Part shown: positions 6,220-8,364 of the stretch, piece by piece
Layout of the letters: every line of letters starts with the position of its first letter
Numbering within the stretch: position 1 is the first letter of the stretch
Assembly: GCA_007134775.1 (NCBI GenBank)
Contig: SLKC01000071.1
Span: 1-64,000, forward strand
Source of the DNA: Ectothiorhodospiraceae bacterium
Lineage (GTDB): Bacteria > Pseudomonadota > Gammaproteobacteria > XJ16 > Halofilaceae
Length of the DNA stretch: 64,000 nucleotides
Direction of reading: 5' to 3'
Notes under the pieces: generated by a model
What the model saw: only the letters and a program-made list of their open reading frames with translations
Database searches by the model: none
What the model was told of the DNA's origin: nothing
Position numbers and translations under genes: made by a program

Positions 6220-6972
6220 ATGCTCGCAATTATCGGTGGAACGGGGCTCTACGAGCTCGATGGCCTGCACGAAGTCCGCGAGGAGAGCGTAGTGACGCCT
6301 TGGGGACCGCCCTCCGGGCCGTTGGTGCTCGGTCGCCTCGCGGACCAGCCCGTGGTCTTCCTCGCCCGGCACGGAGTGCGCCATGCGATCGCGCCGCACG
6401 AGATCAATTTCCGCGCCAATCTCTGGGCCCTGCGCGAGGCGGGGGCGCGGGCGATCGTCGGCGTCGGTGCCGTCGGCGGCATCGCGCCGGAACCCGCTGA
6501 AGGGGGTATCGCGGTGCCCGACCAGCTCATCGATTATACCTGGGGGCGGCCGGCGACCTTCTTCGAGGGGCCGGAGTCCCCCGTTGAGCACATCGACTTC
6601 ACCTGGCCCTACACCGAGGCATTGCGCCGGCGCCTGCTGGCAGCCGCCGTGCATGCGGGGGTCGATGCGGTCGACGGTGGCTGCTATGGCGCCACGCAGG
6701 GCCCGCGGCTGGAGACGGCGGCGGAGATCGCCCGTCTCGAACGCGATGGCTGCACCCTCGTCGGGATGACGGGGATGCCCGAAGCGGCGCTCGCGCGTGA
6801 GCTGGGCATCGACTATGCGTGCTGTGCGGTCGTGGTGAACCGGGCGGCCGGCAAGAACGACGGCGGGGAGGTATCCCTCGACACGATCTGGCAGAACCTC
6901 TCCCAGGGCATGGACAACGTGCGCGCGATCATCGGCGCCCTGTTCGCCGTGGAGCACACCGACGAGGGGTGA
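6220..6972 (+). CDS. mtiP: S-methyl-5'-thioinosine phosphorylase (MTAP/PNP family)
   Basis: 250 residues of the purine nucleoside phosphorylase family 2 (MTAP-like). GGTGLY (6-11) and ARHG (49-52) are phosphate/ribose-binding motifs. At the position where 6-amino-specific MTAPs carry Asp (human TDYDCW), this protein has Asn207 in VVNRAAG, the residue expected for 6-oxopurines. A methylthioinosine phosphorylase of this type is known from Pseudomonas aeruginosa next to nagZ, as here. Predicted reaction: methylthioinosine plus phosphate gives hypoxanthine plus methylthioribose-1-phosphate. Specificity for MTI rather than MTA is inferred from the Asn and the adjacent hpt. Confidence 0.82.
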   Translation: MLAIIGGTGLYELDGLHEVREESVVTPWGPPSGPLVLGRLADQPVVFLARHGVRHAIAPHEINFRANLWALREAGARAIVGVGAVGGIAPEPAEGGIAVPDQLIDYTWGRPATFFEGPESPVEHIDFTWPYTEALRRRLLAAAVHAGVDAVDGGCYGATQGPRLETAAEIARLERDGCTLVGMTGMPEAALARELGIDYACCAVVVNRAAGKNDGGEVSLDTIWQNLSQGMDNVRAIIGALFAVEHTDEG

Positions 6973-6983
6973 TGGCGCATGCG

Positions 6984-7012
6984 TTGACCGCGGTGCGCAT
7001 TCGCCGTACGAT
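6984..7012 (+). promoter_or_regulatory. Sigma70-type promoter for the riboswitch-metZ transcript
   Basis: TTGACC at 6984-6989 and TACGAT at 7007-7012 are separated by exactly 17 bases. Transcription would begin around 7019-7021, immediately before the SAM-II aptamer, which supports both calls. Confidence 0.65.
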
Positions 7013-7026
7013 CGCGATCCGTGATT

Positions 7027-7080
7027 TCGCGCCGATTTGACTGCATCAGCTTGCGGGCGCGTTACAAATGCAGCTAAAGC
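7027..7080 (+). promoter_or_regulatory. SAM-II riboswitch (metZ leader)
   Basis: The segment fits the SAM-II aptamer. P1 is CGCGCC (7028-7033) with GGCGCG (7056-7061). The loop holds conserved GATTTGA (7034-7040), CTGCAT (7041-7046) pairs with ATGCAG (7068-7073) as the pseudoknot, and the conserved GCTAAAG (7073-7079) closes it. The CTTGC before the P1 3' strand and TTACAA between P1 and the pseudoknot strand also match. Location between a promoter and metZ, a SAM-precursor gene, is the expected one. SAM-II is a class known chiefly from alphaproteobacterial met genes. Ligand binding would lower metZ expression. Confidence 0.85.
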
Positions 7081-7150
7081 GAGCGATAGCCCGCTTTAGC
7101 CCCCTGTCGACCCGGCTCGGTGCCGGTATTCGCTGCGCAACGCAAGGGGG
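7073..7150 (+). promoter_or_regulatory. Candidate riboswitch expression platform
   Basis: GCTAAAGCG (7073-7081) has a perfect partner CGCTTTAGC (7092-7100), giving a 9-bp hairpin that reuses the aptamer's GCTAAAG and so excludes the ligand-bound fold. Just after it, CCCCCT (7100-7105) is complementary to AGGGGG (7145-7150), the only purine-rich ribosome site before the metZ ATG at 7162. A switch between these pairings is inference. Confidence 0.5.
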
Positions 7151-7161
7151 TCCTCCCGACC

Positions 7162-8364
7162 ATGACTGCCAACGACTGGGCCGATTTCGGGCCGGAGACG
7201 CGTGCCGTGCGTGCCGGACACGAGCGCACGGCCGAGGGCGAGAACTGCGAACCGATCTTCGCGAGCTCGAGCTTCTGCTTCGGTTCCGCGCGCGACGCCG
7301 CGGAATCCTTTGCCGGCAACCGCGCGGGCAATGTCTACTCGCGCTTCACCAATCCGACTGTGCGCACCTTCCAGGAGCGCCTCGCCGCGCTCGAAGGCGG
7401 CGAGAGCTGCGTGGCGACCGCCTCGGGCATGGCCGCCGTGCTCTCGACCTGCATGGCGCTGCTACAGGCGGGCGACCATATTGTGGCGTCCTACGGCGTC
7501 TTCGGCGCAACCACGACGCTGTTTGACAACCACCTCGCGCGCTTCGGTATTACGACAACCTGGGTGTCGCCGACGGACCCGGCGCAATGGGCCCGTGCCG
7601 TTCGCCCGGAGACGCGGCTGTTCTATCTGGAGACGCCGACGAATCCCCTGACGGAGGTCGCGGATATCCCCGCCATCGCCGCCGTCGCGCGTGAGCACGA
7701 TGTGCTGTTTGCGGTCGACAACTGCTTCTGTACGCCGGCGCTGCAGCGCCCCCTCAAGCTGGGCGCCGATGTGATCATCCACTCGGCGACGAAGTACCTC
7801 GACGGCCAGGGACGTTGCGTCGGTGGCGCCGTGGTCGGCTCGCACGAATTCGTCGGCGAGAAGGTGTTTGGTTTCCTGCGCACGGCGGGGCCTACACTCA
7901 GTCCCTTCAATGCCTGGGTCTTTCTCAAGGGCCTGGAGACGCTCACGCTGCGCATGCGCGCCCACTGCGACAATGCGCTCGGGATTGCCCGCTGGCTCGA
8001 GGCGCATCCCGCGGTCGCACGCGTGCATTATCCGGGCCTGGAGGCGCATCCCCAGCACGAGCTGGCGGCGCGCCAGCAGTCGCACTTTGGCGGCATCGTT
8101 GCATTCGAGGTGCGGGGAGGGCGCGAGGCGGCCTGGCAGGTGGTCGATGCCACCCGCCTGCTCTCGATTACGGCGAATCTCGGCGATGCGAAGACCACGA
8201 TCACGCACCCGGCGAGTACGACGCACGGCCGGCTGGCGCCAGAGCAGCGCGAGCGGGCGGGCATCGGCGAGGGCCTGATCCGCGTTGCCGTCGGTCTGGA
8301 GTCGCCTGCCGACGTGCGCGCCGATCTCGCGCGCGGCCTCGACGCGCTCGTCGGCGGTGCATGA
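7162..8364 (+). CDS. metZ: O-succinylhomoserine sulfhydrylase
   Basis: 400 residues of the Cys/Met-metabolism PLP family. The PLP lysine is Lys211 in SATKYLDGQGR; GQGR after it and the overall sequence are typical of MetZ, which makes homocysteine directly from O-succinylhomoserine and sulfide. Start taken at ATG 7162, giving MTANDWADFGPETRAVRAG as in relatives; GTG 7120 would place 14 extra residues in the leader. Preceded by a promoter and SAM-II riboswitch, so SAM repression is likely. Cystathionine gamma-synthase or gamma-lyase are alternatives within the family, less likely on sequence and context. Confidence 0.92.
   Translation: MTANDWADFGPETRAVRAGHERTAEGENCEPIFASSSFCFGSARDAAESFAGNRAGNVYSRFTNPTVRTFQERLAALEGGESCVATASGMAAVLSTCMALLQAGDHIVASYGVFGATTTLFDNHLARFGITTTWVSPTDPAQWARAVRPETRLFYLETPTNPLTEVADIPAIAAVAREHDVLFAVDNCFCTPALQRPLKLGADVIIHSATKYLDGQGRCVGGAVVGSHEFVGEKVFGFLRTAGPTLSPFNAWVFLKGLETLTLRMRAHCDNALGIARWLEAHPAVARVHYPGLEAHPQHELAARQQSHFGGIVAFEVRGGREAAWQVVDATRLLSITANLGDAKTTITHPASTTHGRLAPEQRERAGIGEGLIRVAVGLESPADVRADLARGLDALVGGA

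Follow-up and report, generated by a model that had tools for sequence, protein, structure and literature searches.

The window analysed here, a 64,000-nucleotide stretch of contig SLKC01000071.1, carries a metZ gene preceded by a leader with a SAM-II riboswitch aptamer (Table 1). The sequence places the metZ start codon at the ATG at 7162, and the upstream gene, which ends at 6972 just before the leader, encodes S-methyl-5'-thioinosine phosphorylase (NF006599, 362.3 bits). The putative promoter near the beginning of the leader retains its letters TTGACC and TA..AT in both relatives of the window's species (loci L008 and L009), and the predicted folds of these relatives place a hairpin, built from other letters, at roughly the position that the small hairpin takes between the anti-Shine-Dalgarno segment and the ribosome site in the window.

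Table 1. Features of the metZ locus in the window
Feature	Position	Strand	Evidence
metZ leader	6973-7161	+	between upstream gene end and metZ ATG
Putative sigma-70 promoter, TTGACC-17-TACGAT	6984-7012	+	agrees with the consensus at 9 of 12 letters; shuffles of the 401-base region average 0.1
SAM-II (SAM_alpha) riboswitch aptamer, core 7028-7081	7019-7098	+	Rfam match, RF00521, 37.2 bits (gathering 36)
P1 helix, 7028-7033 with 7056-7061	7028-7061	+	Rfam structure line
P2 pseudoknot, GCUUGC 7049-7054 with GCUAAAGC 7073-7080; U7075 and A7076 unpaired	7049-7080	+	letters read from sequence
Competing 9-bp helix (ancestral antiterminator, proposed antisequestor)	7073-7100	+	sequence, folding
CCCCCU, proposed anti-Shine-Dalgarno	7100-7105	+	sequence; CCCCC in 3/3 species
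Small hairpin, CCGGC/GCCGG	7112-7126	+	predicted fold of window leader
AGGGGGU ribosome-binding site	7145-7151	+	sequence; GGGGGU in 3/3 species
metZ, O-succinylhomoserine sulfhydrylase, 400 aa	7162-8364	+	NF006003, 694.6 bits (cut-off 522); TIGR01325, 542 bits (cut-off 510)

By its score, its P1 helix, the letters of P2 and its gene context, the leader is a member of SAM-II. The RF00521 match has an E-value of 8.6e-5 for the window, the two relatives score 37.7 and 33.0 bits (L009 lying under the cut-off), and the aptamer stands before a methionine/SAM gene, metZ. P1 is 100% paired across the three species, with one pair altered on both sides (C-G/G-C), a change matched by 150 of 500 shuffles. 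The Rfam structure line gives P1 only, and the P2 assignment is what we take to be that of the SAM-II structure. As judged from its letters, the aptamer sequence is intact. Between 6900 and 7300, Rfam (E<=1) returned no RNA family beyond SAM_alpha and a weak minus-strand match at 7030-7114 to RF02424 ('Burkholderia sRNA Bp2_287'), opposite the SAM-II strand and below the cut-off. RF02424 matches opposite SAM-II, likewise all below the cut-off, occur in loci L136 (572-694, plus), L029 (1478-1586, plus) and L148 (3194-3321, minus). RF02424 may represent the antisense strand of a SAM-II leader from beta-proteobacteria, and the same may hold for the 'metXZ element' of PMC4239095.

The strands GCTAAAGCG (7073-7081) and CGCTTTAGC (7092-7100) are perfect complements. 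The 9-bp helix that they form is present in the minimum-free-energy fold, with a probability of 0.997 for a central pair, and none of 100 shuffled versions of the DNA that follows gave a helix of this length. This helix competes with the P2 strand of the aptamer. The first-pass annotation, whose coordinates for the stem, the anti-Shine-Dalgarno and the Shine-Dalgarno segment are all right, had proposed that the stem uses the GCTAAAG bases needed by the SAM-II fold, and it indeed shares 7073-7080 with P2 under this assignment. Since the helix occupies the 3' strand of P2, helix and ligand-bound aptamer are mutually exclusive. The annotation's mutual exclusion does not extend strictly to the helix and the anti-Shine-Dalgarno pairing, because the two overlap only at C7100, plus G7099 through a G-U pair.

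The wider distribution of this helix was examined in 369 genomes sampled from the same class, whose GTDB definition takes in the former Betaproteobacteria. SAM-II matches exceeded the Rfam cut-off in only 30 of the 369, and 88 of the genomes with a match at E<=0.001 had none above it; for this class the threshold now in use seems too stringent, although a few of the weak rows may be false, for instance L128. There were 134 match rows (two in each of twelve genomes and five in one), of which 132 were taken, leaving out G193 and the second match of G124. Dropping L128, which has no recognisable core, and L001, which is probably foreign, gave 130 counted loci, with the cores of L016, L042, L071, L107 and L111 placed by hand. 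Pattern-selected loci (L138-L148) were kept out of the association counts below. The MetZ tree includes L138, L143, L144 and L147, and these four may also figure in the set of 64 leaders ranked below; L139, L140, L142 and L146, taken as copies of L053, L009, L012 and L066, were excluded from both tree and ranking.

An uninterrupted helix of 7 bp or more, counting G-U pairs, can be formed from GCTAAA in 85 of the 130 loci, where shuffles predict 24.7; for 9 bp or more the count is 54 and the expectation 4.6. Its presence is associated with a T6 run within 150 nt: both occur in 79 loci, the helix only in 6, the T6 run only in 24 and neither in 21 (odds ratio 11.5, p=3e-7), the corresponding numbers for the 94 loci with a metZ-like gene being 62, 6, 14 and 12 (p=1.3e-4). 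Typical leaders have the layout GCUAAAG...CCUGCUUUAGC...GCGGGUUUUUUU, and the helix is read as an antiterminator because one and the same arm pairs with the aptamer strand and contains the 5' half of the terminator. Judged by this comparison of leaders, the helix is the antiterminator of terminator-type SAM-II leaders and is not peculiar to the window, where the special feature is the absent terminator. The premise of the first-pass annotation, that aptamer and ribosome site are adjacent in most described SAM-II elements, was wrong or incomplete, and its competing helix is this common antiterminator. The distinct expression platform it suggested stands in being unlike direct occlusion; what distinguishes it is the missing terminator and not the helix. 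In the 85 loci whose helix reaches 7 bp, GCUAAAG on the 5' side is invariant, pairs 1-7 change on the 3' side only (to G-U), and pair 8 is C-G in 52, A-U in 2 and an A-G mismatch in 24, so that covariation neither supports nor refutes the helix. In three SAM-II leaders that lack a T6 run (L131, L087 and L051), inspection by eye shows CCCGCAAGC or a segment like it that could pair with P2 and P1 on their 5' side, possibly a different anti-aptamer pairing.

The order to which the window belongs is represented by three genomes in the collection, and the aptamer lies before metZ in each. All three species have the 9-bp helix, CCCCC directly behind it and GGGGGU before the ATG, and none has a T5 run within 150 nt of GCTAAA. 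A U-tract terminator was looked for in the window leader, across 6900-7300 and in the 150 nt past GCTAAA, and was not found. Of the parts of a terminator platform, the leader has the antiterminator helix (9 bp) and no GC hairpin with a U-tract behind it; it falls outside that platform because the terminator is absent. A MetZ tree was built from 99 of the 103 metZ-like rows, among them L001, with sequences truncated at 170 residues and a bootstrap that had not settled. In it the three species form a clade (100/98) whose sister is L023 (99/82), followed outward by L015 (96/55, weak) and then by L012 and L053 (98/94). All four neighbours have both helix and T6 run. Because the clade is nested inside terminator-type leaders, the simplest history suggested by these sequences is loss of the terminator with retention of the helix in the window's lineage, and comparison supports the view that the helix is the antiterminator arm of the neighbours' leaders, kept after that loss. 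The other three class loci with the helix and without a T6 run (L019, L061 and L065, the last with an interrupted T-run) lie elsewhere on the tree.

U-tract terminators were also counted in 400 kb of each genome, with three shuffles: 2 against 1.3 expected in the window's own genome (G000), 15 against 4.3 in G001, of the same genus, and 8 against 2.0 in G063. A general loss of such terminators in the clade cannot be claimed, because G001 and G063 exceed expectation. Contig C125 of G000 carries a second, stronger SAM-II match (L001, 965-1038, 48.5 bits), which has a hairpin and a T-run and precedes the gene of a Cys/Met PLP enzyme; this contig may be foreign or a contaminant, since the branch leading to that enzyme in the MetZ tree is very long.

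Transcription could still be the controlled step, through Rho-dependent termination or a hairpin lacking a U-tract, when SAM halts translation or exposes a loading site. We consider this rather improbable. Neighbouring lineages do have terminator-type leaders, and a survey indicates that some bacteria may terminate at structures without a canonical U-tail (PMC2258182); however, no terminator-like site was found in 6900-7300, and GUCC rather than U's follows the candidate AGGGG arm.

CCCCCT at 7100-7105 is complementary to AGGGGG at 7145-7150, as the first-pass annotation had pointed out, and these segments are common to the relatives, CCCCC and GGGGGU being kept in all three species while the linker between them has diverged. 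The GGGGGU site of the clade can presumably still pair with 16S rRNA through one G-U pair. The length of the C5:G5 pairing is not clearly beyond what composition predicts, especially in L008 and L009: the 6-bp match of the window was reached by 78 of 1000 shuffles (188 with G-U pairs), and the 5-bp matches of the relatives by 746 and 899 of 1000 (949 and 991 with G-U pairs). Among 74 sampled ribosome sites of this genome, namely those of 256 open frames in which 5 or more consecutive letters match the site, GGGGG occurs in 10, metZ included, and a 6-bp Watson-Crick partner lies upstream of the site in only 2, one of which is metZ. The conservation check proposed earlier found both pairings in 3/3 species and no covariation; since the helix letters, C5 and G5 are identical in all three, covariation is uninformative.

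Folding was compared between a state with the aptamer region unavailable, as if SAM-bound, and one with the helix forced, the SAM binding energy standing outside the model. With 60 coding bases, the C5:G5 pairing probability in the bound and the helix-forced state was 0.15 and 0.02 in the window, 0.82 and 0.015 in L008, and 0.99 and 0.10 in L009. With 30 coding bases, the only length at which linkers were shuffled, the extra cost of opening the ribosome site in the bound state was 1.8, 4.9 and 3.3 kcal/mol, respectively, values reached by 45, 2 and 8 of 200 shuffled linkers. The fold comparison called for in the first-pass annotation thus shows a site harder to open when SAM-bound in the relatives and only a small effect in the window, and the effect shrinks with longer coding sequence in the window and L008. 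Over 6-60 coding bases the difference ranged from -0.5 to 1.8 in the window, changing sign at 45, from 0.5 to 4.9 in L008 and from 2.5 to 3.6 in L009; with 60 coding bases it was 0.1-0.7 in the window, 0.5-0.8 in L008 and about 3 only in L009. In both states the ribosome site is costly to open (5-10 kcal/mol). Ranked by this difference in opening cost among 64 leaders with the helix and a recognisable ribosome site, the window came 18th, L008 second and L009 seventh; the 59 of these with a T6 run averaged 0.64 (standard deviation 1.86), with values up to 6.5. With a pairing that is invariant and of a length near that expected from composition, a sequestor role for CCCCC:GGGGG is no more than plausible.

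The same data bear on the possibility that the helix is a relic of a lost terminator switch, in which SAM may bind, CCCCC:GGGGG forms by chance or in both states, and metZ translation is low and hardly regulated. Composition accounts for the pairing length, helix and sequestor have only one or two bases in common, and switching in the window itself is not significant. However, the three species agree in the helix, CCCCC and GGGGGU, with MetZ of the two relatives about 76% identical to that of the window, while the linker has drifted, and the predicted shift in the two relatives exceeds most shuffles at 30 coding bases. On balance a relic seems unlikely, although it deserves serious weight.

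Direct occlusion, in which the aptamer itself hides the ribosome site, is the mechanism described for the solved metX element from the Sargasso Sea (PMC10907184). That compact element belongs to the same aptamer class and shares the expected SAM-off logic, whereas the window's ribosome site is far from the aptamer and outside P2. It begins 64 bases past the end of the 5' strand of the 9-bp helix (7081 to 7145), a distance that contradicts direct occlusion unless there is a remote start such as that reported for S. meliloti metA (PMC9373788). We rejected this mechanism as very improbable, the ribosome site being too distant from the aptamer.

The leader is a SAM-II element whose expression platform is specific to the lineage and probably translational. 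Translational control of metZ is the reading we favour, with slightly less than an even chance, and its evidence base is three species of one clade. When SAM is scarce, the 9-bp helix would form, capture G7099 and C7100 and disfavour CCCCCU:AGGGGG, so that ribosomes could bind. When SAM is present, the aptamer would keep GCUAAAGC and release the downstream arm, whose (G)CCCCCU would then pair with AGGGGG(U) and hide the ribosome site. That the riboswitch lowers metZ at plentiful SAM in this way, the antiterminator serving as the antisequestor of a translational OFF switch, is a proposition we place just short of even. More tentatively, one lineage may have converted a transcription-terminating SAM-II to translation control, keeping the helix as antisequestor, dropping the 3' half of the terminator and its U-tract, and having a GGGGGU site complementary to the C-run.

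Known systems share parts of this arrangement. Terminator-type SAM-II metZ leaders, such as those of L012, L015, L023 and L053 and the one predicted for Sinorhizobium meliloti metZ (PMC9373788), have the same aptamer with metZ downstream. On the basis of L012, L015, L023 and L053, terminator-type leaders also have the same competing helix with GCUAAAG, and the window resembles this type in leader length, with 89 nt from GCTAAA to the start against a median of 95 nt across the 75 metZ-like leaders that carry a T6 run. Unlike them, the window lacks a U-tract terminator and has CCCCC and a G-run ribosome site instead. The proposed logic is that of the translational OFF riboswitch with an antisequestor described as a general mechanism in PMC2258182; here, by contrast, an antiterminator appears to have been put to new use as the antisequestor, and we found no description of such a re-use in SAM-II in the open-licence literature searched.

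Tandem SAM-II leaders offer a further likeness. Forty-four tandem examples have been described, in some of which the first unit has a terminator and the second controls the ribosome site (PMC9481103). With our own pattern, a second SAM-II-like core (GATTTAA..CAACTTGC..GCTAAAG) was found 60-77 nt past the first GCTAAA in 9 of 142 loci (L029, L038, L040, L043, L112, L117, L134, L136 and L145); an Rfam scan (E<=0.1) of L029, L117, L136 and L145 did not list it. All nine second units have a 7-14 bp helix whose 3' arm contains or borders on a GGRG motif a short distance ahead of the start codon, a description and not a test, the helix having been sought under that condition; L145 has a further AGGAG beyond it. 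Eight of them share with the window a pairing of a C-rich with a G-rich segment that lies between a SAM-II-like core and the start codon, the exception being L117, which is not C-rich. These units sit behind a first SAM-II unit, whereas the window has a single aptamer alone. By analogy, the nine would provide a precedent for translational SAM-II control in related sequences.

Expression platforms evolve faster than aptamers. The presence of SAM-II in 118 of 369 genomes of this class (E<=0.001) contrasts with a survey from 2014, which covered about 200 genomes of proteobacteria and found SAM_alpha only in Rhizobiales and Rhodobacterales (PMC4239095). The three-species clade and its terminator-type neighbours have the same competing helix with an altered output, which makes a direct comparison possible.
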